DNA of 64,000 bases. Source: Halobacterium rubrum. GTDB lineage: Archaea > Halobacteriota > Halobacteria > Halobacteriales > Halobacteriaceae. The position numbers and the translations under genes are program-made. How positions within the stretch are numbered: the stretch's first letter is position 1; every line of letters begins with the position of its first letter. Below, one piece after another: positions 17,046 to 29,062 of this stretch. The notes beneath the pieces were generated by a model. That model saw nothing but the letters and a program-made list of their open reading frames with translations. It was not told where the DNA came from and did no database searches. The stretch is taken from positions 930,001 through 994,000 of the forward strand of contig NZ_JAJQQZ010000001.1 in the NCBI RefSeq assembly GCF_021729015.1. The letters run 5' to 3'.

Positions 17046-19238
17046 ATGGTTGATTTGGGACGCAGCAAAAAGCTGTCGCCCGACCGGCGCGCCGACGTGC
17101 CGTTCCCGGCCGTCGTCGGGCAGCAGAACCTGAAGGCGGCACTGCTCGCCGTCGGCGCTAACGACGCCCTCGACGGCCTGCTCGTCGCCGGCGAGAAGGG
17201 CACCGCGAAGTCCACGACCGCCCGCGCGCTCGCCGACCTCCTCCCGGACCAGCGCGCCGTCGCCGACTGCCCCTACGGTTGCCCGCCCGAGAACCCAAAA
17301 CGGCAGTGTCGGGACTGCCGGGACCGGGACGACCCACCGGTCGAGACCCGCTCCGTCCCGTTCGTCACGCTACCACTCGGTGCCTCCCGCGACCGCGTCG
17401 TCGGGTCTCTCTCTGTCACCGACGCGCTCGCCGGCGACGCCGAGTTCAACCCTGGTTTACTCGCCGCCGCCAACCGAGGGTTCCTCTACGTCGACGAGGT
17501 GAACCTCCTCGACGACCACCTCGTCGACGTCCTCCTGGACGCCGCCGCCGCCGGCGTCAACCGCGTCGAGCGCGACGGCGTCAGCGTCACCCACCCAGCC
17601 GAGTTCACCCTCGTCGGCACCATGAACCCCGAGGAGGGCGACCTCCGGCCACAGTTCCGCGACCGGTTCGCGCTCCGCGTCGCCGTCGAGGGCAGCGACG
17701 ACCTGGCCGACCGCGTGGCGATTCTCGACCGCGCGCTCGCTGGCTTCGACGGCGACTACGTCGAGGAGACCGCCGCCGTCCGGGACCGCCTGCTCGGCGC
17801 CCGCGACCTGCTGTCGGACGTCGACCTGCCGGACTCGCTGGCCCGGGAAATCGCCGAACTCTGCCGGGATGCCGGCGTCGACGGACACCGCGCCGATGTC
17901 GCCACCGCTCGGGCCGCTCGGACCCTCGCGGCGCTCGACGGACGGCCCACCGTCACCGAGGGCGACGTCCAGCGCGCCGCCGGGTTCGCGCTCCCCCACC
18001 GGCTGCAGTCCCGCCCGTTCGAGGACGCCCCCGACCCGGAGGACGTCGTGGACGACCACTTCGACGACCGCGACGCCCAGCAGCCCGACGAGGGCAGCGA
18101 TGACGGTGGGCAGTCCGAATCCGACGCGCCCGACGAGGACGAAGCGGCCGACTCCGGTGACGAGTCCGGAGAGCCGGACGCCGACTCCGGCCCGGACACC
18201 GACGAGGAGTCGACGGCAGACCCCGAGTCCGGCCAGCGTGGCGACCAGTCCGGCGACAGTGAGGCCCCCGGACAGACGGGGCGGGGAGGCAGCGATGGCG
18301 GTGACGGAGACGGAGACAGGGACGGAGACGATGACGAACCGGCCGACAGCGACACAGAATCGGGTGAGAGCGACGGGAACGCCGGCGACGACGAGAACGA
18401 GGACGAGGACGAAGCCACGCCGCTGGTCCCCGGGCAGTCCCGCGGCGAGGCCGTCGAACCGGGCGTCGGCGAGGCCCCCGACACCGGCTCCCCGGACGCC
18501 GAGCGCGCCACTGGCGGAACGGGACGCGCGACCGCCGACCCGAGCACCGACGCTCGCGGGGCTCGCGTGCGGACCGAGCGCGCGTCACCCACCGACGACG
18601 TGGACGCCGCCGCCTCGGTCCGGGCGGCCGCCGCCCGGGGCAGCGACAGCGTCGCGTCCCGGGACCTCCGGCAGTCAGTCCGCTCGGGGTCGGCGTCCGC
18701 GCTGGTCGTGTTCGCGGTGGACGCCAGCGCGTCGATGCGCGGGCCGATGCGCGCCGCCAAGGGCGTCGCGCTCGACCTGCTCCGGGACGCCTACGAGCGC
18801 CGCGACGAGGTCGCCGTCGTCGCGTTCGCGGGCGACGACGCCGACGTGGTGTTGCCCCCGACCGACAGCGTCACCCTCGCCGCCCGCCACCTGAAGTCGC
18901 TGCCGACCGGCGACCGGACGCCGCTCCCGGCGGGCCTCCGGACCGCCGACGAGGTGCTGGGGCGCGCGGACCCCGACGCCGCCGTCGTCGTTGTCGTCAC
19001 CGACGGCCGGGCGAACGCCGGCACCGACGCGCCGACCAGCGACACCCGGGCGGCCGCGAGCGCGCTCGCCGACCGGGACGCGGACGTGCTCGTCGTCGAC
19101 GCCGGCGACGACGGCGACCGCGGCAGCCTCGTCGACGACGTGGTTCGCGCCTCGCAGGGCGAGCGCGTGCCGCTGTCCGCGCTGACGCCGGAGCGAATCG
19201 ACGGCGCGGTCCGGGGCGCGACCGGGGGTGAGGCCTGA
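17046..19238 (+). CDS. chlID: Fused ChlI/ChlD-type cobaltochelatase ATPase subunit
   Basis: AAA+ motor for the CobN chelatase. The 730-residue protein has an N-terminal AAA+ domain (Walker A GEKGTAKST, residues 49-57; Walker B FLYVDEVNLL near 146; GTMNPEEGDLRPQFRDRF sensor region), an acidic low-complexity linker of about 150 residues, and a C-terminal von Willebrand A domain with MIDAS FAVDASASM (Asp559). It therefore combines ChlI and ChlD in one chain, replacing bacterial CobS and CobT chelatase subunits. Cys75, Cys79, Cys88 and Cys91 lie between the Walker motifs and could bind a metal. It overlaps the transporter gene by 1 bp. Confidence 0.92.
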   Translation: MVDLGRSKKLSPDRRADVPFPAVVGQQNLKAALLAVGANDALDGLLVAGEKGTAKSTTARALADLLPDQRAVADCPYGCPPENPKRQCRDCRDRDDPPVETRSVPFVTLPLGASRDRVVGSLSVTDALAGDAEFNPGLLAAANRGFLYVDEVNLLDDHLVDVLLDAAAAGVNRVERDGVSVTHPAEFTLVGTMNPEEGDLRPQFRDRFALRVAVEGSDDLADRVAILDRALAGFDGDYVEETAAVRDRLLGARDLLSDVDLPDSLAREIAELCRDAGVDGHRADVATARAARTLAALDGRPTVTEGDVQRAAGFALPHRLQSRPFEDAPDPEDVVDDHFDDRDAQQPDEGSDDGGQSESDAPDEDEAADSGDESGEPDADSGPDTDEESTADPESGQRGDQSGDSEAPGQTGRGGSDGGDGDGDRDGDDDEPADSDTESGESDGNAGDDENEDEDEATPLVPGQSRGEAVEPGVGEAPDTGSPDAERATGGTGRATADPSTDARGARVRTERASPTDDVDAAASVRAAAARGSDSVASRDLRQSVRSGSASALVVFAVDASASMRGPMRAAKGVALDLLRDAYERRDEVAVVAFAGDDADVVLPPTDSVTLAARHLKSLPTGDRTPLPAGLRTADEVLGRADPDAAVVVVVTDGRANAGTDAPTSDTRAAASALADRDADVLVVDAGDDGDRGSLVDDVVRASQGERVPLSALTPERIDGAVRGATGGEA

Positions 19239-19963
19239 TGGTCGACGCTCTCGGCAGCGCCACCGGCATCGGCATCCTCGGAGCGGCGGCCGTGCTCGGC
19301 GTCACGCACGCCCTCGAACCCGACCACGCAGCCGGCATCTCCGCGCTGACGAGCGAGACTGACCGCTGGACGCACGCCGCGTTCGTCGGCGGCAGCTTCG
19401 CCGTCGGCCACGTCGCCGTCGTCGTCGCCTGGGTCGCCGTCCTCGGGCTGCTGGGCGCCGCCGCCAGCAGCGTCCCCGGCGCAGTCGACGAGCTGGGCAC
19501 GCTGGTCGCCGGCGGCATCCTCCTCGTCGTCGCAGCCGTGCTCGCGGCGACCGGTGCTCACCGCCTCCGAGCTGGTGGCGACGACGAGCAGGACGCGGAC
19601 GGCGAGCGCGGGATTGCGGGTCGCCTGCTGGCGCGAGCGCAGGCGCACCTCCACAGCCACGAGCACGAGACGCGTGCGGACTACCTCCGGACGGGCGTCG
19701 TCGGGTCGCTGTTCGCGCTGTCGCCGCCCGTCAGCATGCTCGCGCTCGTCTCGGCAGTACTCCCGTCTGCGGGGCTGTCGACGACCGCAGCCAGTGTCGG
19801 CGTCTACGCCGTCGCCATCACCGCGACGATGAGCCTCGTCGGCACCGGCCTCGGCAGCGCGTTCGCGGCGGCGCGGCGGCGCAGTCGACGCACGCACGCC
19901 GCCCTGGAACTGTGCGCGAGTGGAGCCGTGTTCGCGTTCGCCGTGCAGATACTGGTCGTCTGA
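19238..19963 (+). CDS. Nickel/cobalt transporter (NicO/HoxN-like)
   Basis: A 241-residue integral membrane protein with about six hydrophobic segments. The first helix carries HALEPDH (residues 24-30), the H-x4-DH metal-selection motif of NiCoT-type permeases. A cytoplasmic loop contains a His-rich stretch, AHLHSHEHETR, that may capture metal. Starting in the TGATG junction with the chelatase ATPase, it is almost certainly co-translated with it, which favours cobalt as the substrate and couples uptake to insertion. Nickel transport cannot be excluded. Confidence 0.8.
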   Translation: MVDALGSATGIGILGAAAVLGVTHALEPDHAAGISALTSETDRWTHAAFVGGSFAVGHVAVVVAWVAVLGLLGAAASSVPGAVDELGTLVAGGILLVVAAVLAATGAHRLRAGGDDEQDADGERGIAGRLLARAQAHLHSHEHETRADYLRTGVVGSLFALSPPVSMLALVSAVLPSAGLSTTAASVGVYAVAITATMSLVGTGLGSAFAAARRRSRRTHAALELCASGAVFAFAVQILVV

Positions 19964-20035: not shown

Positions 20036-21358
20036 TCAGTCGAACAGCCGGAGCCGATACGCTCCCAGCGGCCCGTCGTCGCTGTTGTCGTGGTACGTCA
20101 CCGGCTCCTCGACGACGGCGACACGGCTTCCGCAGTCGCTTCGACCGCCGCCTTCCCGGGCACTGCACTCGTCGCCGAGCGCCGCGGCGGTGACGACGCC
20201 GGGCACGCTCCGGGCGACCGTCGGCCCACCGGCCACGTCGTACCGACGGACGCCGTGCCGGTCCGGGTCCCGGTCGCGGAAGTGCTGGGCGACGGGCACG
20301 GCGACGCAGTCGTCGCGGGCAGCAATCTCGTGCGCGAACCCGCCGACGGCGTCGACGAACGCCGTGTCCCCGCTGGCGGTCACGCCGACCGCGGTGTGTT
20401 CGTTCGGGTGCCGCAGTTCGGTCTCGCGGTCGTCGCCCTCGGGGTAGGTGTTCCCGACGACGAAGACGGCACCCTCGGCCGTCGCGTGGACGTGATTCGG
20501 GTAGGCGTAGACGGTCTCCTGCGCTGGCTCTCCTGTGGCGTCTCCGCCGCCGCCGCCGCCGTGTTCGACCGGCCGACCGAGGTCGACGGCCCACCGGACG
20601 CCGTCGCCGTCGAGGCAGTACCCCCGGTAGTCGGCGTGGCTCGCGGCGACCACGCCGCCGGGCGCGAGCGCCACGTCGCCGACGCGCCGGTCGCCGTCGC
20701 CCGGCGGGTCCCAGCGCCGCCGCCCCCGGCCCGTCTCCGGGTCGAGCACGACGAGGCCGGCGTCCCAGTCGCCGGGGCAGCGGTTGTAGGCGACGGCGAG
20801 ACGGTCGCCGCCGTCGACGGCGAGGCTGATGGGGGAAGCGTCGGCCTCGTGTCGCCACGCGACACTCCCGTCCGGGCCGACGGCGTACACGACGCTCCGG
20901 AAGCACCGGCCGCCGTCGGGCCCGCGCTCGTAGCGGCGCGCGGCGACGAACGCGCTCTCGCCGTCGGCGTCGGGCACGGCGATGTCGACGACGAACGGCA
21001 GGTAGAAGCGGGTGTGTTTCTGCGGGACGCCGACGTCGTCGGCGGTCCGGTACCGCCACCGGACGGCCCCGGTGTCGCGGTCGTGCAGTCGAATCTCGCC
21101 GGCCGCACCGCGCTCGCCGGCCAGCACGCCGCCGGCGAACGGCGCCAGCGCGACGACGCTCCCCCGGTCGCTGTCGCCCTCGTTCCGCCAGCGCTCGTCG
21201 AGCGACGCGTCGAAGGCCGCGACGGTGCCGTCCGCGAGCCCCGCCACGACCGCGTCGCCGTCCAGACAGACGCCGGACCGGCGGCCGAGCTGCCGGGAGC
21301 CGTTCGGCTGAACCTCGCCCAGGTCCGCGACGGCGCTACTCGTCGGCGGGGAAGGCAT
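20036..21358 (-). CDS. PQQ/WD40-like beta-propeller protein at the end of a cobalamin operon
   Basis: A 440-residue protein made of repeating beta-rich blades: GDAVVAGLADGTVAAFDASLDERW, VALAPFAGGVLAGERG, LVVLDPETGRGRRRWD and GVVAASHADYRGYCLDG resemble PQQ-repeat (BamB-like) blades. There is no signal peptide or membrane segment, so it is probably cytoplasmic. It starts 23 bp inside the end of the upstream 123-residue gene, so it is the last gene of the cbiT operon. A function in corrinoid synthesis is suggested only by this position; scaffolding or metal-storage roles are possible. No enzyme motif is visible. Confidence 0.7.
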   Translation of the reverse strand: MPSPPTSSAVADLGEVQPNGSRQLGRRSGVCLDGDAVVAGLADGTVAAFDASLDERWRNEGDSDRGSVVALAPFAGGVLAGERGAAGEIRLHDRDTGAVRWRYRTADDVGVPQKHTRFYLPFVVDIAVPDADGESAFVAARRYERGPDGGRCFRSVVYAVGPDGSVAWRHEADASPISLAVDGGDRLAVAYNRCPGDWDAGLVVLDPETGRGRRRWDPPGDGDRRVGDVALAPGGVVAASHADYRGYCLDGDGVRWAVDLGRPVEHGGGGGGDATGEPAQETVYAYPNHVHATAEGAVFVVGNTYPEGDDRETELRHPNEHTAVGVTASGDTAFVDAVGGFAHEIAARDDCVAVPVAQHFRDRDPDRHGVRRYDVAGGPTVARSVPGVVTAAALGDECSAREGGGRSDCGSRVAVVEEPVTYHDNSDDGPLGAYRLRLFD

Positions 21359-21707
21359 CGTGGAGAGAGTGGTGGGTCTCGCCGAGGTCGTCGAAAAACG
21401 AGTCGCCGTGGTCGGCGAGCCGAGCCAGCGACCGCTCGGCGTCCCGGACGGCGACGAGGCGCCCCCGGAGGTAGTCGTACTCGGCGTCGCTCTCGTCGGC
21501 GGCGGCGACCTCCTCCTCGAGGTCCACGAGCGCGGCGTCGAGGTGGCGCTGCAGGTCGGACAGCGAGTCCGCTTCCGCCAGCCCCTCGATGGGGCCGTCC
21601 AGTGCGCCTTCCAGTTCCTTCTCGGCGTGCTCGCGGGCGCTCCGGTCGCTGGTGCCGAGAACGTTCATCAGGCCGAGTCGCAGCGCTTCGAGTTCGTGGC
21701 AGGTCAT
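21336..21707 (-). CDS. Small helical protein of the cobalamin operon (DUF3209-like)
   Basis: A 123-residue acidic, largely alpha-helical protein: MTCHELEALRLGLMNVLGTSD at the start, then long helices rich in Leu, Glu and Arg and a C-terminus HHSLHDAFPADE. The N-terminal Cys-His pair and C-terminal His residues could bind metal. It resembles the haloarchaeal family I know as DUF3209, which co-occurs with cobalamin genes; that name is from memory. It sits in ATGA overlap with cbiX. No enzymatic motif is visible; it might be a small partner of the chelatase or of the missing steps. Confidence 0.7.
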   Translation of the reverse strand: MTCHELEALRLGLMNVLGTSDRSAREHAEKELEGALDGPIEGLAEADSLSDLQRHLDAALVDLEEEVAAADESDAEYDYLRGRLVAVRDAERSLARLADHGDSFFDDLGETHHSLHDAFPADE

Positions 21708-22927
21708 AGTAGCTGTGAGTCGAGGTCGGGCACGATGCGGTCCCGGTCGGCGTGGGACGAGACGATGCGGTCGGCGTCCTCGGGGTCGACGCGCTGGTAC
21801 CAGACGCCGTCGGGGTAGACGGCGACGTTCGGGCCGTCGCCGCACTCGCCGAGACACGAGGTGCGCGTCACGCGCACGCTGGCACCGTCGGCGTCCCGGG
21901 CTTCCTGTCGGAGGCGTTCGAGGACGGCCGGCGCGCCGTCGGCGGCGCACGTCTGGTTCGTGCAGACGGCGACGTGCTGGTCGGGGGTGTCGTGGACGTG
22001 TGGGTCGTCGGCGACGTCCTCGCGGTTCTCGTGGGCCTCCTGGTGGTTCAGGGCGCGCAGCATCGCCTTCGCGCCGCCGACGTCCTCCTCGTAGCCGTCC
22101 AGTTCCACCTTGTACTTGCAGGTGTCACAGGACATCTCGACGCTGCCCGTCCGCGCCTCCTGCCAGCGGTCCGCGAGCACGTCCAGCAGCCGCGAGTCCG
22201 TGCCCAGCGGGTCGCCGCAGGCGGCGTCGACGTACGGGTAGTCCGCGTCGAACTCGTCAGTGCCGTCCCGGATGCGGCCCGTGAGCACGCCGTCGCCGAG
22301 CATGTACGGCACGACCACCACGGCGTCCGGCCGGTGTTTGGCGACGTCGTGCAGCGTGTCGTCGAGCGTCGGTTCCGTCACGCCGATGAACGTCGCGTCG
22401 ACCCGCGAGAACTCGCGGCCCTCGTACAGCAGGCGGGCGAGCTTGTGGACGTCGGCGTTGGCGTCTGGGTCGCTGGAGCCGCGCGCACACAGGACGACCG
22501 CCACGTCGTCTTCCTCGCGGTCGACGCCGAGGTCGGCCTCGACGGCTGCCGCGCGGTCGTCCAGCAGGTCCACGATGGCGGGGTGGACGCCGAGGTGCGA
22601 GCCGTTCCGGAAGTCGACCTCCGGGTGCTGGCTGCGGGCGCGCTGGAGCGCGGCCGGCACGTCGTTTTTGACGTGGCTGGCGGCGAACAGCGACAGGTGG
22701 ACGACCGAGATGCTGGCGACGGCCGGCGCGAGCGCGTCGATGGCGTCCGGAATCGTCGGCTCTGCGAGTTCGAGGAAGCCGGCGTCGACGGGCACGCCGA
22801 GCCGGCCCTCGAGGTCGGCGGCGAGCGTCCGCACCTGTTCGTTGGACTCCTCGCGGCGGGAGCCGTGGCCGACGAGCAACACCGCCTCGTCGTTCAGACT
22901 CCCGGTCGGGCTGTCGGTGCGGCTCAC
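21704..22927 (-). CDS. cbiX: Sirohydrochlorin cobaltochelatase CbiX with C-terminal 2Fe-2S ferredoxin domain
   Basis: Inserts cobalt into sirohydrochlorin, the entry step of the cobalt-early route. The 407-residue protein has two chelatase half-domains: AVLLVGHGSRREE (His21) and a second starting VVLCARGSSDPDAN. Then comes MSCDTC (about residues 264-269), an MxCxxC motif known from long CbiX proteins with an Fe-S centre, a His-rich linker, and a thioredoxin-like 2Fe-2S domain (VCTNQTC, then TSCLGECGDGPNVAVYPDG). The GTG at 22927 gives VSRTDSPTGS and forms a GTGA overlap with the gene upstream. Fusion with the ferredoxin domain suggests a redox role beyond cobalt insertion. Confidence 0.9.
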   Translation of the reverse strand: MSRTDSPTGSLNDEAVLLVGHGSRREESNEQVRTLAADLEGRLGVPVDAGFLELAEPTIPDAIDALAPAVASISVVHLSLFAASHVKNDVPAALQRARSQHPEVDFRNGSHLGVHPAIVDLLDDRAAAVEADLGVDREEDDVAVVLCARGSSDPDANADVHKLARLLYEGREFSRVDATFIGVTEPTLDDTLHDVAKHRPDAVVVVPYMLGDGVLTGRIRDGTDEFDADYPYVDAACGDPLGTDSRLLDVLADRWQEARTGSVEMSCDTCKYKVELDGYEEDVGGAKAMLRALNHQEAHENREDVADDPHVHDTPDQHVAVCTNQTCAADGAPAVLERLRQEARDADGASVRVTRTSCLGECGDGPNVAVYPDGVWYQRVDPEDADRIVSSHADRDRIVPDLDSQLL

Positions 22928-23625
22928 GGCTCCCCGACCTCCAGTGTGGCGTCGACGCCATCGGCCTGTTCGAGGCTCCGCCGGAGCTTCCGGCGGCGCG
23001 ACGGCGCGAACAGCCCCGACTCGTCGCTGCCCTCGTAGAGCCACGCGCCGAGTGCCGGCACGGCCTCGTCCTCGACGCTGAAGTAGTACCCCGAGGACGC
23101 GTCCGCCAGGTCGCCGCAGGGCGCGGCCCGCGGCACGTCGTCGAGCAGCGACTGGACCGTCTCCAGCAGCGCCCGGTCCTCGTGGACGAACGAGAGGCCG
23201 ACGGTGCCCGACGACGACTTGAAGCAGACGGTGCCGCAGGCCTCGACGAGCCCGCGGAGCAGCTGGCGCTCGTGGCCGTCGAACGCGTCCAGCCGGTAGC
23301 CGCCCGCGTCCCCGTCGATGGGGAGGCCGAACGCGGCCGCCGCGCGCTCGGCCAGAGAGCCGAACACCTGGACGGTGTACTCGTCCTCGCGGCGCGTGAT
23401 CGAGGTGTCGTGGGCGTACTCCCGCTCCCTGACGCGGTGGTCGGTCTGGGCGCCGCCCGCGACGGCCGCCAGCCGCTCGGCCGCCGCCTCGTCGGTCGTC
23501 TCCACGCGCACGCAGGACTCCGTGAGGTCGCCCGAGCCGGCGACGTACCCCCAGAAGTACGCGGTCTCTGGGTGCGCGGCGAGCGCGGACTCCGGCACGT
23601 CGACCCGCTGGCTGTCGGTACTCAC
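22924..23625 (-). CDS. LAGLIDADG-fold protein without catalytic acids, in the cobalamin operon
   Basis: A 233-residue protein with two internal repeats like LAGLIDADG homing endonucleases: FWGYVAGSG (residues 24-32) followed by VRVETTDEAAAERLAAV, and LRGLVEACG (residues 123-131) followed by VGLSFVHEDRALLETVQSLL. At the positions of the catalytic Asp, the motifs have Ser31 and Cys130, so nuclease activity is unlikely. It is locked into the operon by GTGA overlaps on both sides (ferredoxin before, cbiX after), so it is not a mobile intruder. A role in corrinoid synthesis is inferred from position; cysteines 130, 134 and 170 might take part in catalysis or metal binding. Confidence 0.75.
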   Translation of the reverse strand: MSTDSQRVDVPESALAAHPETAYFWGYVAGSGDLTESCVRVETTDEAAAERLAAVAGGAQTDHRVREREYAHDTSITRREDEYTVQVFGSLAERAAAAFGLPIDGDAGGYRLDAFDGHERQLLRGLVEACGTVCFKSSSGTVGLSFVHEDRALLETVQSLLDDVPRAAPCGDLADASSGYYFSVEDEAVPALGAWLYEGSDESGLFAPSRRRKLRRSLEQADGVDATLEVGEP

Positions 23626-23897
23626 GGCTCGCCCTCCACGCGCTCGACGGTGATGGCGTCGAACGGACACGCCTCGGCGGCGGCCTCGGCGTCGTCGACG
23701 CGCTCGTCGGCGAACTCGCCGACGACGGCCGTATCCGTCTCTCGAATCGTGCCGTCGTCGCTCTCTGCCGGCGGCGCCGGGTCTGCGTCCGGGTCCAGCG
23801 TGGCGATGCCGTCGTCGTCCTCCACAAACCGGGGGTCCCGGGTCAGGCACGCGAACACGCCGTCGCAGGCGTCGCGGTCGATGGTCACCCGGTACAT
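23622..23897 (-). CDS. Single-cluster ferredoxin (3Fe-4S/4Fe-4S type)
   Basis: A 91-residue acidic ferredoxin. The N-terminal Cys pattern RDACDGVFAC followed much later by EACPFDAI gives three cysteines (C-x5-C ... C-P), as in 3Fe-4S or single-4Fe-4S ferredoxins. A haloarchaeal acidic insertion of about 50 residues separates them. It starts at a TGATG junction with cbiH and overlaps the LAGLIDADG-fold gene by 4 bp. It probably supplies electrons to a reduction step of the pathway, such as ring contraction or a CbiJ replacement; the exact partner is not shown by the sequence. Confidence 0.85.
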   Translation of the reverse strand: MYRVTIDRDACDGVFACLTRDPRFVEDDDGIATLDPDADPAPPAESDDGTIRETDTAVVGEFADERVDDAEAAAEACPFDAITVERVEGEP

Positions 23898-24889
23898 CAG
23901 TAGTCGTACTTCGTCTCGTAGCCACGCGGCGTGACCATCCGGTCGTCGAAGACGTACGTCTCGTCGTTGCCGACGACGATTGTGGTGGTCATGTCCACGA
24001 GGTCGGTCTCGCCGTACGATTCGAGCTCGCCGAGGGTCGTGATCTCGACTTCCTCGTCCTCGCGGCCGGCGCCGTGGACGATGCCGACCGGCGTGTCCTC
24101 GTCGCGGTGGTCGAGCAGAATCTCGCAGGCCGTCTCGAAGTTCTCGCGGCGCTTCCGGCTCCAGGGGTTGTAGATGGCGATGGTGAACCCCTCGCCGGCG
24201 ACGGCGTGCAGCCGGGACTCGATTTCGTCCATCGGTGTCAGGTGGTCGGACAGCGAGACGCTCACGGAGTCGTTGACGAGCGGTGCGCCCAGCCGCGCGC
24301 CGCAGGACTGCGCCGCCGGGACGCCGGGCACGACCTCGAAGTCGAGCATCGACGCCATCGCGCCCTTCGACTCGGTGATCTCCAGCGCCAGCCCCGCCAG
24401 CGCGTAGACGTTTGGGTCGCCGCTGCCGACGATGGCGACGTGGTTGCCGGCGAGCGCGCGGTCGATGGCCTCCTCGGTGCGGGAGACCTCGCCGCACATC
24501 GGCGTGTCGTAGATGTCCTCGGCGTCGTCGGTGATGTCGTCCGGGATGAGGTCGATGTACGTCGTGTACCCGACGATGTGCTCGGCGTCGGCGAGCGCCG
24601 CCTTCGCGCGGTCGGTCATCCCCTCCGGCTGGCCGGGGCCGAGCCCGACCGCCACGAGCGTCCCGGGGTCGGCGTCGAAGTCGTCGACGGTCGCGCCGAC
24701 TTCCTCTGCCTCTTCGTTCGCCTCGCTCTCGGTGTCACTCGACGCGCCGCAGGCCGAGGTCGACGAGTCGGTGCTGCTCGACGACCCGCCGCACGCCGAC
24801 TCGCTGCTCGTCTCGTCGGTCGCGGACGCGCCGCACTTGCCGGTCGATTCCTCCGTCTCGGTCGTGGTTGTGGTGTCGTCAGTGCTCAT
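23897..24889 (-). CDS. cbiH: Cobalt-factor III/precorrin-3B C17-methyltransferase CbiH (copy 1)
   Basis: SAM-dependent C17 methylase that drives ring contraction. The 330-residue protein has a 70-residue Cys/Ser/Thr/Glu-rich N-terminal tail with three similar segments (KCGAS, ACGGS, ACGAS) and then the methylase body: LVAVGLGPGQPEGMTDRAK, HVAIVGSGDPNVYALAGLA, VVPGVPAAQSCGARLGAPL, SLSDHLTPMDEIESRL and AIYNPWSRKRREN. The adjacent gene at 24889 is a second CbiH-like protein, so they may split C17 methylation and ring contraction. The Cys-rich tail is unusual and may bind a metal or Fe-S cluster. Confidence 0.88.
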   Translation of the reverse strand: MSTDDTTTTTETEESTGKCGASATDETSSESACGGSSSSTDSSTSACGASSDTESEANEEAEEVGATVDDFDADPGTLVAVGLGPGQPEGMTDRAKAALADAEHIVGYTTYIDLIPDDITDDAEDIYDTPMCGEVSRTEEAIDRALAGNHVAIVGSGDPNVYALAGLALEITESKGAMASMLDFEVVPGVPAAQSCGARLGAPLVNDSVSVSLSDHLTPMDEIESRLHAVAGEGFTIAIYNPWSRKRRENFETACEILLDHRDEDTPVGIVHGAGREDEEVEITTLGELESYGETDLVDMTTTIVVGNDETYVFDDRMVTPRGYETKYDY

Positions 24890-25755
24890 CAGAAGTCCTC
24901 GACGTCACGCCCGCCGCGCGGGGTGACGAGGTGTTCGCGATGGTCGTTCTCCCATACCGCCGTCTCGTGGTTCCCGACGAGAATCGAGGTGCCCATGCCG
25001 CCGACCTTCTCGCTGTGGTCGGCGACCTCGCCGAGCGTCGTCACGGTGTGCGTCTCGCCCTCCGTGTTCCGGCCGGCGTCGCCGCGGCCGGCGTCGTTCA
25101 CGATGGCGACAGGCACGTCGTCGGCGCGCTCCTCGCGGAGCACGTCGACGGCGCGCTCGTAGTCCCGCCAGCAGTTGTAGAGGACGACGACGAACCCGCT
25201 GATTGCGGCGGCCCGGAGCTTCTCCTCGATTTCCTCCCACCCCCGCCACTTGTCGGACAGTGAGATGGTGCAGAAGTCGTTCGAGAGTGGCGCGCCGAGG
25301 TTCGCCGCGCCGCCGAGCGCCGCCGTGACGCCGGGGACGATCTCGATGGGGACGTCGTAGGCCTCGTCCTCCTCGGCCATCAGGTAGACCAGATCGGACT
25401 TCCCGTAGACGTTCGGGTCGCCGCCGGAGACGTGCGCCACGTCCTCGCCGTCCCGCACGCGCTCGAAGGCCTCCCGGGCGAGTTCGACCTGTCGCCCCAT
25501 CGTCGACCGGACGACCTCCTGGTCGGGGCGCTCGCCAGCGTCCTCCGGCGGCAGCGTGCCGTCCCGCCGCAGGAACTCCTGGTAGAGGTTCGACGCGACG
25601 ACGCAGTCCGCCGTCCGGACGACGTCCTTCGCGCGCTGGGTCATCCCGCCCGGCAGGCCCGGGCCAATGCCGACGACGTACAGCGTGCCGTAGTCGCTGG
25701 TGTCGGCGGTGGAAGCGGCGTCGCTGTCGCCACCACTGCCTACCTCGCTGCTCAT
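24889..25755 (-). CDS. cbiH: CbiH-like precorrin-3B C17-methyltransferase (copy 2)
   Basis: A 288-residue tetrapyrrole methylase of the CbiH/CobJ group: YVVGIGPGLPGGMTQRAKDV, VAHVSGGDPNVYGKSDLVYL, IVPGVTAALGGAANLGAPLS, DFCTISLSDKWRGWEEIEEKL and VVLYNCWRDYERAV. It shares the domain pattern of the next gene (copy 1) but lacks its Cys-rich tail, and substitutes CW for the PW in the YNPWS region. It joins cbiG by ATGA and cbiH copy 1 by TGATG. Paralogous duplication followed by specialisation is the simplest reading. Confidence 0.85.
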   Translation of the reverse strand: MSSEVGSGGDSDAASTADTSDYGTLYVVGIGPGLPGGMTQRAKDVVRTADCVVASNLYQEFLRRDGTLPPEDAGERPDQEVVRSTMGRQVELAREAFERVRDGEDVAHVSGGDPNVYGKSDLVYLMAEEDEAYDVPIEIVPGVTAALGGAANLGAPLSNDFCTISLSDKWRGWEEIEEKLRAAAISGFVVVLYNCWRDYERAVDVLREERADDVPVAIVNDAGRGDAGRNTEGETHTVTTLGEVADHSEKVGGMGTSILVGNHETAVWENDHREHLVTPRGGRDVEDF

Positions 25756-26723
25756 TGTCCCACCGCCACAGTGACAGCCTCGTCGTAGCGTTCCTTCTCG
25801 ACGAGCAGTTCGTTGTCGCGGCCGCCAGCGATGGCCGACGCTTCGGCGATGCCGGGCCAGCCGATGAGCTCCTTCGAGCGCGACGGCGTCGGGCCCTCGT
25901 GGTCCTCGAGGGTCTCCTTCTCGAAGGAGACGACGCCGAGGCCGAGCTCTTCGGCAGCCGCCAGCAGGCCGTCCTCGTCTTCCTTCCGAGTGCCGGTCGC
26001 AACGAACTCCACGTCGTCGAGGTCGCAGTCCGTGCCGTCGAGGCTGGCTTCCCACGCGTCGAGGAACTGCTGTTTCTTCGCGCCGGAGACGCTGCCCGTG
26101 CCGAGGACGACGCCGTCGTCGCCGTTGCGTTTGAGGACGGTGACGTCGTCGCCGACGAGCACGGCCTGCGGGCCGTCCAGTCGAGCGACCGGCCCCAGAT
26201 TCTCGTCGAGGACGGCGAGGTTCGTGGCGACCGTGGAGTCACCGTTCACGACGTGGGCGTCGAGGGCCTTCGCGCGCTCCTCGACGCCCTGCTTGCCGGC
26301 GGCCTCTGACGCCGTCGTCATCGCCGGGACGGCACCCATCGACGCGAGGTCGTCGGCGACCTGGTTGGCGCCGTGGTGGCCGCCCGTCAGCGGAATCGCC
26401 CACGTGAGTGCCTCGTCGACGACGACGACGGCGGGGTCGTCCCACTTGTCGTCGAGCAGCCCGGCGGTCTTCCGCATCGCGATGCCCGAGGCCATCAGGC
26501 CGACGAAGCAGTCGTACTCGCCCCAGTGCTCGGCGAACACGTCGCCGTGGTACTCCAGAATCTCGATGGACTCGTACCGGTCGCCGATGCCGTCGACGAT
26601 GTCCTCAGCCGTGTCCAGCTTGCGCTCGAATGCCACGACGGCGATGTCCTCCGCGACTTCGCCGTCGGAGTCCGGCGTCGAACAGTGCCCCCCGGAGTCG
26701 TCGGAGTCGTTGTCCGTACTCAT
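25752..26723 (-). CDS. cbiG: Cobalt-precorrin-5A hydrolase CbiG
   Basis: Opens the delta-lactone of cobalt-precorrin-5A and releases acetaldehyde in the anaerobic route. The 323-residue protein has the three family parts: N-terminal region with ECF-like VGLMASGIAMRKTAGLLDDKW, central VVVVDEALTWAIPLTGGHHGANQVADDLA, and C-terminal domain DVEFVATGTRKEDEDGLLAAA with LGLGVVSFEKETL. It is a strong marker for the anaerobic-type pathway in a genome that also has CobN. The N-terminus carries a His-Cys segment (GGHCS). It begins 2 bp after cbiF. Confidence 0.9.
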   Translation of the reverse strand: MSTDNDSDDSGGHCSTPDSDGEVAEDIAVVAFERKLDTAEDIVDGIGDRYESIEILEYHGDVFAEHWGEYDCFVGLMASGIAMRKTAGLLDDKWDDPAVVVVDEALTWAIPLTGGHHGANQVADDLASMGAVPAMTTASEAAGKQGVEERAKALDAHVVNGDSTVATNLAVLDENLGPVARLDGPQAVLVGDDVTVLKRNGDDGVVLGTGSVSGAKKQQFLDAWEASLDGTDCDLDDVEFVATGTRKEDEDGLLAAAEELGLGVVSFEKETLEDHEGPTPSRSKELIGWPGIAEASAIAGGRDNELLVEKERYDEAVTVAVGQ

Positions 26724-26725
26724 GG

Positions 26726-27610
26726 TCAGTCGTCGGCCTCGCTCTCGCCGCGGTTCGCCCAGTCGCCGTAGAGGTACGAGCGGTCGTAGTTCGCGCCCGC
26801 GCCCGCCTCGCCGATCACGACCAGTGCCGAGGCGCGGTAGCCCGCCGCCTCGACTCGCTCGCCGATGGTCTCGATGGTGCCCTCGATGACGTCCTCGTCC
26901 GGCCACGAGGCGTGGTAGACGACTGTGACGGGGGTGTCCGGGTCGTGGCCGTCCTCGAGCAGGCGCTCCATCACGTCGGGGATGGCGTGCGTGCCGAGGT
27001 AGATACAGGTCGTCACGTCGCCCATCTCGACGAACTCCGAGACGTGGTCGTCCTCGGCGTCGAGGGTGTTCCCCTGCGGGCGCGTGAACGCGACGTGGTT
27101 CGCGGTGCCGTTCAGCGTCAACTGCGTCCTGAGCGTCGCGGCCGCCGCGAACGCCGACGTGACGCCCGGGACGATGTAGGTCGGGACGCCCTCCTGTTCG
27201 AGGGCGTCCATCTGCTCCAGGGCGGCGCCGTAGATTGCGGGGTCGCCGCTGTGCAGGCGCACGACCGTCCGGCCGTCCTCGTGGGCGTCCCGCATCAGCG
27301 GAATCAGCTCTTCGAGGTCCTTGCCGACCGAGGAGACGGTCTCGGCGTCCGCGCAGTACTCCTCGAGGAGTTCGCTGTTCACGAGGGACCCGGCGTGCAC
27401 GACGAGGTCCGCGTCCGCGACGAGGTCTCTGCCCGTGACCGTCAGCAGGCCGGGGTCGCCCGGGCCGGCGCCGACGAACGGGATACCGTCCTGCACGTCG
27501 CCGGCGGTGTGTTCGTAGACGCGCTGGTCGCGGCCGCGCTGGCGCTGCTCGCTCGCGGCGTCGATGGCGTCCTGCGGAGCCTGGGTCTCGTGTTCGGCGT
27601 CGTCAGTCAC
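26726..27610 (-). CDS. cbiF: Cobalt-precorrin-4 C11-methyltransferase CbiF
   Basis: Methylates C11. From GTG 27610 the protein has 294 residues: a 40-residue acidic tail, IPFVGAGPGDPGLLTVTGRD (SAM loop), VVHAGSLVNSELLEEY, VVRLHSGDPAIYGAALEQ, IVPGVTSAFAAAATLRTQL and CIYLGTHAIPDVMERL, all matching CbiF/CobM. The GTG (VTDDAEHETQ) is favoured because it overlaps cbiL by only 8 bp; an ATG at 27640 would overlap by 38 bp. The SAM-binding GxGxGD and the HSGDPAIYG loop are intact. Confidence 0.92.
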   Translation of the reverse strand: MTDDAEHETQAPQDAIDAASEQRQRGRDQRVYEHTAGDVQDGIPFVGAGPGDPGLLTVTGRDLVADADLVVHAGSLVNSELLEEYCADAETVSSVGKDLEELIPLMRDAHEDGRTVVRLHSGDPAIYGAALEQMDALEQEGVPTYIVPGVTSAFAAAATLRTQLTLNGTANHVAFTRPQGNTLDAEDDHVSEFVEMGDVTTCIYLGTHAIPDVMERLLEDGHDPDTPVTVVYHASWPDEDVIEGTIETIGERVEAAGYRASALVVIGEAGAGANYDRSYLYGDWANRGESEADD

Positions 27611-28334
27611 CGCTGACCACCCCGTCCTCGGCGCCGTCACCGGACCGGTCCACGTCGTCGAACGCCGTCGGCCGGTCCTTCTGGAGGGACTGGCGTTCGG
27701 CGTAGGCGAGCGTGTAGTAGTCGCGCTCCGCGATCTCTCCGGGGTCGCTGGTGACCGTCGTGTCGCCCTGCTCCATGAACAGCCGGCGGCCGTACGTCAC
27801 GTCGTAGCCGGCGTCCACGAGCCCCTCGTGGGTCGCGGGCGCGTCGGTCACTTTGAACAGGACCATGCGGTCTGGGCCAGTCGGGGACGCGCCCTGCGAG
27901 GCTTCCCGGAGCGCGAGCCCCGCGCCGGCGTCGACCTCCACGCCGAGCGCGGTGGTGAACGCGCTGACGGCGCTGACCCCGGGGACCGTCTCCACGTCGA
28001 CGTCCGGGTGGAAGGCGTCGAGCGTGCGGCGGAGGTGGCCGAACGTCGAGTAGACGTTCGGGTCGCCGAGCGTCGCGAACGCCACGTCGCCGTCGCGAGC
28101 ACGCGGCGCGACCTCACTGGCGGCGTCGCGCCACGCCTCGCGGAGCTCCTCGGGGTCCCGGGTCATCGGGAAGTCGAGGTCGCCGACGCGGGACTCCGGG
28201 ACGTGGTCGGTGACGACCGACTTCGAGAGCCGGCCGGGCGAGTACACCACGTCGGCGTCTTCGAGGACGCGCTTCCCCCGGACGGTGACGAGGTCGGCGT
28301 CGCCGGGGCCGAGCCCGACGCCGTAGACGGTCAT
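27603..28334 (-). CDS. cbiL: Cobalt-factor II C20-methyltransferase CbiL
   Basis: Methylates C20 right after cobalt insertion. The 243-residue protein opens MTVYGVGLGPGDADLVTVRG and has VVYSPGRLSKS, VAFATLGDPNVYSTFGHL, VETVPGVSAVSAFTTALG and MVLFKVTDAP, the CbiL/CobI pattern. There is no N-terminal extension. It forms an ATGA overlap with cbiT upstream, and its stop is overlapped by the GTG of cbiF. It lies near the head of the longest operon of the locus. Confidence 0.92.
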   Translation of the reverse strand: MTVYGVGLGPGDADLVTVRGKRVLEDADVVYSPGRLSKSVVTDHVPESRVGDLDFPMTRDPEELREAWRDAASEVAPRARDGDVAFATLGDPNVYSTFGHLRRTLDAFHPDVDVETVPGVSAVSAFTTALGVEVDAGAGLALREASQGASPTGPDRMVLFKVTDAPATHEGLVDAGYDVTYGRRLFMEQGDTTVTSDPGEIAERDYYTLAYAERQSLQKDRPTAFDDVDRSGDGAEDGVVSGD

Positions 28335-28912
28335 TGCTGCCCCTCCGCCTCGCCGGCGGCTTCCCCGTCTCCGGTGGCGCTGCCGACGAACGTGTAGACG
28401 GGGTTCTCGGCGTCGAAGGCGGTGGCGCCGGCGAGGTCGTAGCCGCGGCTCACCTGGAACTGCGAGACCTCGTCGAGCAGGTCGCGGTCGCGGAAGGCGC
28501 GGGCGGCCTCCCCGGCGACTTCCAGCCGTGAGACGTTCATGACGACGCGGCCGACGCCCGTCTCGACGGCGTGGTCGAGGACGGACTCGTAGTTCCGGCT
28601 GCCGCCGAGGAACAGGATGTCGGCGTCACTGGGGAGGCCGTCTGGGGCTTCGGCGTGGCGCAGGTCGACGGCGTCCGAGAGGCCGTTCGCGGCGAGGTTC
28701 TTCCGGGTAGTCTCCAGCCTGTCGGCGTCGCGCTCGAGGGCGGTGACCCGGCCGGCGTCGCGTGCGGCCTGTATGGTCACCGCGCCCGTGCAGGACCCGA
28801 CCTCGACGAAGTGGTCGTCGGGGCCCAGCGCGAGCTTCGACCAGAGGACGGCCCGGACTTCGGGCTTCGTCGGTCCGGCCCGGGCGTCGTGTGGGAGTCG
28901 TGTCTGTGCCAT
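28331..28912 (-). CDS. cbiT: Cobalt-precorrin-6B C15-methyltransferase (decarboxylating) CbiT
   Basis: Methylates C15 and decarboxylates the C12 acetate. The 193-residue protein is a class I SAM methyltransferase: LPHDARAGPTKPEVRAVLWSKL, DHFVEVGSCTGAVTIQAA (SAM loop with GSCTG), VTALERDADRLETTRKNL and LFLGGSRNYESVL. It is the first gene of the eleven-gene minus-strand operon, and is separate from CbiE. The ATG at 28912 is used because it begins MAQTRLPHD at the family start. The promoter region upstream is shared with the divergent regulator gene. Confidence 0.92.
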   Translation of the reverse strand: MAQTRLPHDARAGPTKPEVRAVLWSKLALGPDDHFVEVGSCTGAVTIQAARDAGRVTALERDADRLETTRKNLAANGLSDAVDLRHAEAPDGLPSDADILFLGGSRNYESVLDHAVETGVGRVVMNVSRLEVAGEAARAFRDRDLLDEVSQFQVSRGYDLAGATAFDAENPVYTFVGSATGDGEAAGEAEGQQ

Positions 28913-28936
28913 CGCCGGACACAACGACAGTAGCGC

Positions 28937-28959
28937 CCAAAACAATTTTGGTTGTATTA
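28937..28959. promoter_or_regulatory. Operator-like palindrome before cbiT
   Basis: CCAAAACAATTTTGG (28937-28951) has 6-bp inverted arms and is followed directly by TTGTATTA (28952-28959), which fits the TTGTANTA pattern of the two other control regions. It starts 25 bp before cbiT and lies 104 bp before the regulator gene. Confidence 0.5.
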
Positions 28960-29062
28960 GGGAAAGTGTATTTTCGTAACTGGCCACGAGACGCGCCACA
29001 GCGCCGCCGACGCGGGAAGTTACACAAAAATACTTGAATTGGGGGCGCCTCCGTTTGGGTTG

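Follow-up and report, generated by a model that had tools for sequence, protein, structure and literature searches.

A predicted LAGLIDADG-fold protein is a fixed member of the haloarchaeal B12 operon and a possible accessory to the cobaltochelatase CbiX

A gene for a protein with a predicted LAGLIDADG fold is a fixed member of the haloarchaeal B12 operon and is tied to de novo B12 synthesis. We analyzed this gene in the window, a stretch of 64,000 nucleotides from Halobacterium rubrum, and in related loci of other haloarchaea. We infer that its product is a domesticated LAGLIDADG protein that acts as an accessory in cobalt or Fe-S handling around CbiX, a reading to which we give a probability of about 0.4.

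Operon setting, predicted fold and catalytic positions

Read from its first gene, the minus-strand operon of the window consists of cbiT, cbiL, cbiF, cbiG, cbiH1, cbiH2, ferredoxin, LAGLIDADG gene, cbiX, DUF3209 gene and beta-propeller gene (Table 1), with chlID and cobN close by. As the first-pass annotation had noted, the LAGLIDADG reading frame overlaps its neighbors on both sides. The overlaps are 4-nt GTGA sequences, one with the cbiX start (22924-22927) and one with the ferredoxin stop (23622-23625). The C terminus of the window CbiX is a thioredoxin-like [2Fe-2S] ferredoxin domain (PF01257 at residues 315 to 390). A helix-turn-helix (HTH) regulator gene is divergent to cbiT, both in the window and in Haladaptatus. 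The gene order around the LAGLIDADG gene is conserved across the compared loci, and cbiX stays its neighbor in loci in which the ferredoxin gene is not adjacent (L069 and L098). Long ORFs in L032, L040 and L052 gave the appearance of ferredoxin-LAGLIDADG fusions; those of L032 and L052 are pairs of genes in different frames.

Table 1. Features of the B12 operon in the window
Feature	Coordinates	Strand	Basis or remark
cbiT, first operon gene	28331..28999	-	
cbiL	27603..28334	-	
cbiF	26726..27640	-	
cbiG	25752..26723	-	
cbiH1, CbiH paralog	24889..25755	-	Locus comparison; PMC8305020
cbiH2, cysteine-containing low-complexity N-terminal tail (CGAS/CGGS repeats)	23897..24889	-	
Fer4_15 single-cluster ferredoxin, 3 Cys, overlaps LAGLIDADG gene start	23622..23897	-	PF13459, E 2.9e-15
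LAGLIDADG gene of the B12 operon (GTG start); product of 233 aa with predicted LAGLIDADG fold	22924..23625	-	ORF, fold; gene order compared with PMC8305020
Motif 1, FWGYVAGSG, residues 24-32	23530..23556	-	LAGLIDADG-like
Motif 2, LRGLVEACG, residues 123-131	23233..23259	-	LAGLIDADG-like
Cys134 codon	23224..23226	-	On strand right after motif 2 (predicted fold)
CbiX cobaltochelatase (CbiXL type), CxxC motif	21704..22927	-	PF01903
DUF3209 protein, 123 aa	21336..21707	-	Pfam match and distribution
PQQ/BamB-like beta-propeller protein, operon end	20036..21358	-	PF13360, below cut-off

Between cbiX1 (B0054) and cbiH2 (B0057) of Haloferax volcanii, Pfeiffer and Dyall-Smith 2021 (PMC8305020) place two genes with no assigned function, HVO_B0055 and HVO_B0056. 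By gene order, the LAGLIDADG gene is very probably the equivalent of HVO_B0055, and the window ferredoxin fits HVO_B0056 by position. The paper lists HVO_B0055 just as "function unassigned", and the text available to us has no mention of LAGLIDADG. At NCBI, orthologs of the gene are annotated as "cobalamin biosynthesis protein".

Two further observations concern the surroundings of these operons. Beside the cob genes, positions 19238-19963 of the window encode an integral membrane protein that resembles, by eye, Ni/Co transporters of the HupE/NicO type; it is present only in a few close relatives. On a Haloarcula rara plasmid (L007, L010), one stretch of the B12 operon occurs twice on a single record, as a duplication or an assembly artifact.

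The two internal LAGLIDADG-like repeats and the fold proposed in the first-pass annotation were borne out by structure prediction and structural search. An AlphaFold2 model computed from 63 aligned orthologs (pLDDT 89.9, pTM 0.85) has two LAGLIDADG repeats, each predicted as helix-strand-strand-helix-strand-strand-helix. All 45 Foldseek matches to the PDB at E<=0.001 were LAGLIDADG proteins (best E 5e-7), among them bI3 maturase, PI-SceI, PI-PfuI, I-DmoI, I-SceI and WhiA. At the sequence level, Pfam LAGLIDADG_3 (PF14528) falls on the second half of the window protein with an E value of 7e-4, which just misses the Pfam cut-off, and the same family matches 35 of the 63 orthologs (best E 3.6e-5). 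The family profile also matches (E 0.001) a LAGLIDADG intein, recognized by reading the ORF, that interrupts the RNA polymerase A'' gene of G021 (L108 1985-4594), the haloarchaeon that is the most divergent host of the LAGLIDADG gene. In an hhalign comparison, in which the intein side was a single sequence, both motifs were aligned over 161 columns (28% identity, E 2.8e-7, probability 93%). The family profile gave chance matches only when it was run with HMMER against PDB sequences, and an NCBIfam search returned no family. No HTH family matched; the model ends with a helix (residues 208 to 227) and a disordered tail. On this evidence, the protein is assigned to the LAGLIDADG fold by structural modeling. 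Because the fold matches, PF14528 and the intein similarity agree, descent from a homing endonuclease is likely.

We compared the catalytic positions in 81 sequences. The first-pass annotation had reported Ser31 and Cys130 in place of the two catalytic acids. Loss of the second acid holds family-wide: position 130 (codon 23236-23238) is Cys in 80 of the 81 sequences and Ala in one. However, Ser31 (codon 23533-23535) is atypical, since 60 of the 81 sequences have Asp at this position. Ser or Ala is found in the window's own clade, and Gly, Asn or Glu occur elsewhere when the residue is not Asp. No ortholog among the 81 has both acids together. The earlier view that a nuclease is unlikely stands, and the protein is probably non-cutting. 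A check on conservation had also been suggested for Cys134 and Cys170. Cys134 is invariant (81/81), but position 170 is mostly Thr or Tyr. The consensus of motif 2 is RGLxExCG, with Arg124, Gly125, Glu128 and Gly131 invariant in the aligned set. By analogy with I-CreI, Cys134 presumably faces the saddle, as the active site does. Conserved Arg, Lys or His residues occupy positions 64, 68, 72, 78, 111, 136, 210, 211 and 213. Among sequences of the Halobacterium group, dN/dS is 0.24 to 0.44, indicating purifying selection.

Distribution and operons without the gene

We surveyed 242 haloarchaeal genomes, 127 with CbiG and 115 without. The LAGLIDADG gene was found in 123 of the 127 CbiG genomes and in none of the other 115, so that all carriers also have CbiG; the exceptions with CbiG only are G001, G007, G051 and G128. 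This association is stronger than the operon membership that had been claimed from the overlapping genes of the window. DUF3209 was found in 124 of the 242 genomes, namely the 123 carriers and G051. A phylum-wide search of 393 genomes found the LAGLIDADG gene in haloarchaea only.

These data bear on the idea that the protein is a homing endonuclease, either active or degenerated only recently, and sits in the operon by chance. The fold itself and the Asp31 of most sequences would agree with such an origin. However, the second acid is replaced in every sequence examined, and the gene keeps one operon slot across many genera under purifying selection. None was found in the viral contigs searched, and no copy occurs in CbiG-less genomes. 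Orthologs with intact DG residues outside cobalamin loci were looked for, and none was found. A passing endonuclease is thus a very improbable explanation.

Three of the four exceptions, G001, G007 and G128, keep cbiT-L-F-G-H1-H2-X, chlID and cobN, with neither the ferredoxin nor the LAGLIDADG gene between cbiH2 and cbiX, and they also lack DUF3209. Their CbiX proteins have the CxxC motif and a long His-rich tail that replaces the [2Fe-2S] domain. The N-terminal tail of their CbiH2 is without cysteines; among the window and L001-L100, this tail has two to four cysteines in all operons that carry the LAGLIDADG gene and have a readable cbiH2, and also in G051. The fourth exception, G051, keeps the ferredoxin, DUF3209 and the usual CbiX. 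Between the ferredoxin and the regular CbiX, in the slot of the LAGLIDADG gene, it has an additional CbiX whose His-rich tail is shorter (L093 12202-13143). Because its operon sits among gene-bearing ones on the tree, G051 most likely lost the LAGLIDADG gene. In some lineages, the operon therefore does without the gene.

The heme-copper oxidase (COX1) is missing in just four of the 242 genomes: G001, G007, G128 and G092, the last of which has no CbiG. A 2x2 table of COX1 against the LAGLIDADG gene (3, 0; 1, 123) gives a hand-calculated P value of about 1e-5. However, the operons of G001, G007 and G128 form one clade (support 0.998 in a midpoint-rooted FastTree tree), so the correlation may reflect a single evolutionary event. 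The root of the tree decides between a gain of the set in the aerobes and a loss in the others.

Across the window, L032, L091, L092 and L094, the C terminus of CbiX is either the thioredoxin-like [2Fe-2S] domain or a His-rich extension. In the loci examined, the His-rich tail coincides with the absence of DUF3209. The L032 locus keeps the LAGLIDADG gene and the ferredoxin, has a His-rich CbiX tail, and has no DUF3209 match. Therefore, the LAGLIDADG protein and the His-rich tail are not strictly interchangeable.

Candidate roles in B12 synthesis

The first-pass annotation had suggested that the protein fills the CbiD or CbiJ step. The gap is real in our sample: CbiD (PF01888) was found in none of the 242 haloarchaeal genomes, CbiJ in none above the cut-off, and the near-universal presence of the LAGLIDADG gene in CbiG genomes would suit a replacement. 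PMC8305020 likewise names four unassigned cluster genes as candidates for the missing steps. However, the four CbiG genomes without the gene have the same CbiD and CbiJ gaps, and G051 does so while still having the ferredoxin and DUF3209. Because these four keep the operon and cbiC, the LAGLIDADG gene is not a general CbiD or CbiJ substitute. The window protein has no PF01888 match and no cofactor motif of a methyltransferase or reductase, and the LAGLIDADG fold has no known enzyme of such type. CbiH1, which occurs in all complete operons viewed, is a better methyltransferase candidate, in accordance with the Figure 1 legend of PMC8305020. We therefore consider it improbable that the protein works in the pathway as an enzyme in place of CbiD or CbiJ. 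Since the LAGLIDADG gene, the ferredoxin and DUF3209 are all dispensable in some lineages, the gap must have another filler, for which CbiH1 and an unknown reductase are the leading candidates.

A second alternative is that the protein regulates the cob operon by binding DNA, in the manner of WhiA, and perhaps senses cobalt or redox state with the Fe-S ferredoxin. The best fold matches include WhiA structures, the saddle of the LAGLIDADG fold binds DNA in nucleases, and the conserved Arg, Lys and His residues could serve the same purpose. WhiA (DUF199, Gram-positive; PDB 3hyi, 8dy7 and 8dy9) is likewise a domesticated, non-mobile LAGLIDADG fold in a chromosomal housekeeping gene. In Streptomyces it partners the [4Fe-4S] protein WhiB, much as the LAGLIDADG gene stands beside a ferredoxin gene. 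However, WhiA is a transcription factor whose DNA-binding part is a C-terminal HTH, and the window protein has no HTH and is encoded within a biosynthetic operon whose genes are tightly packed, with overlaps of 4 nt. The locus already has another gene for an HTH regulator, divergent to cbiT. The pI of 4.5 matches that of the enzyme neighbors; this argument is weak, because the adjacent haloarchaeal regulator is equally acidic. On balance, a WhiA-like regulator is unlikely.

The third alternative is a redox or Fe-S relay, or a scaffold, between the ferredoxin and CbiX or CbiH2. Here Cys130 and Cys134 would form a disulfide or ligate a cluster, and no cobalt would be bound. The neighbors fit this proposal: a single-cluster ferredoxin, the [2Fe-2S] tail of CbiX and the Cys-containing tail of CbiH2, all three of which are jointly absent from the three COX1-less genomes that have the operon. 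Against it, the LAGLIDADG gene stays at cbiX where the ferredoxin is not adjacent, and one copy is found away from the operon, beside metal transporters. We rate such a relay as unlikely, too.

That copy belongs to G021. It encodes 198 aa, keeps both cysteines, and is flanked on its own strand by two genes for metal-efflux transporters of the cation diffusion facilitator (CDF) family. The distance is 24 bp to the CDF gene before it and 403 bp to the one after it. No other sampled copy of the LAGLIDADG gene lies outside the cob operon, so this is a single case. The matches of the flanking transporters spread over several metal classes and do not single out cobalt. The G021 setting points to metals.

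We therefore return to the reading of an accessory around CbiX. Four arguments favor a metal or cofactor role at this step. The ends of the motifs already form a divalent-metal site in the LAGLIDADG fold; thiols there would shift the preference from Mg(II) to Co(II) or Fe-S; the cobaltochelatase is the closest and most stable neighbor; and His-rich CbiX tails occur where the LAGLIDADG gene is absent. Such tails have been proposed to act in metal storage, or in cobalt storage and delivery (PMC7689651).

In this model, a homing endonuclease or intein nuclease domain would have been domesticated once, and its divalent-metal site would have been rebuilt with the thiols of Cys130 and Cys134. The ligand in the saddle would be Co(II) or, with lower probability, an Fe-S cluster or a corrinoid, and the protein would serve the cobalt-insertion step of CbiX. 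We infer putative Co(II) binding from the gene context and the two cysteines. The protein would assist the cobalt-early pathway as an accessory rather than as a core enzyme, because the G001, G007 and G128 operons exist without it. It would probably act together with DUF3209, the adjacent single-cluster ferredoxin and the [2Fe-2S] domain at the end of CbiX. Together, these proteins may form a set that adapts an oxygen-sensitive pathway to aerobic cells; evolutionarily, this link with aerobic life is weak. In its boldest form, the proposal is that the change from Asp to Cys turned a nuclease metal site into a Co(II) (or Fe-S) site, which would give the first LAGLIDADG-fold metallochaperone or cofactor handler, for B12 synthesis in air. 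We regard this form as doubtful.

Known relatives, and DUF3209 beyond archaea

Homing endonucleases, inteins and maturases (I-DmoI, PI-SceI and bI3 maturase; PF14528) have the two-repeat fold and the motif helices in common with the predicted structure of the window protein. Unlike homing endonucleases and inteins, the window protein has Cys for the second acid and vertical operon membership, and its gene has neither an intein splicing part nor an intron. Non-mobile uses of the LAGLIDADG fold known so far concern nucleic acids, as in WhiA, maturases and HO. Among the papers available to us, our literature search found none that pairs LAGLIDADG with cobalamin biosynthesis. Fixation of such a protein in a small-molecule pathway would thus be a new kind of recruitment.

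A further parallel is the C-terminal extension of CbiXL in Bacillus megaterium, a His-rich and Fe-S feature that is accessory and not needed for chelation (PMC7689651). That extension is a CbiX tail of unrelated fold, whereas the LAGLIDADG protein is a separate protein.

DUF3209 is wider than archaea, because it is present in a Leptospira B12 operon and in Thermus. In Leptospira interrogans (L106 8811-10372), CbiX and DUF3209 are adjacent in a B12 operon that has a true CbiD, and the Thermus match came from our control panel. Leptospira and Thermus are aerobes. Outside archaea too, DUF3209 looks like an accessory to the cobalt-early pathway.
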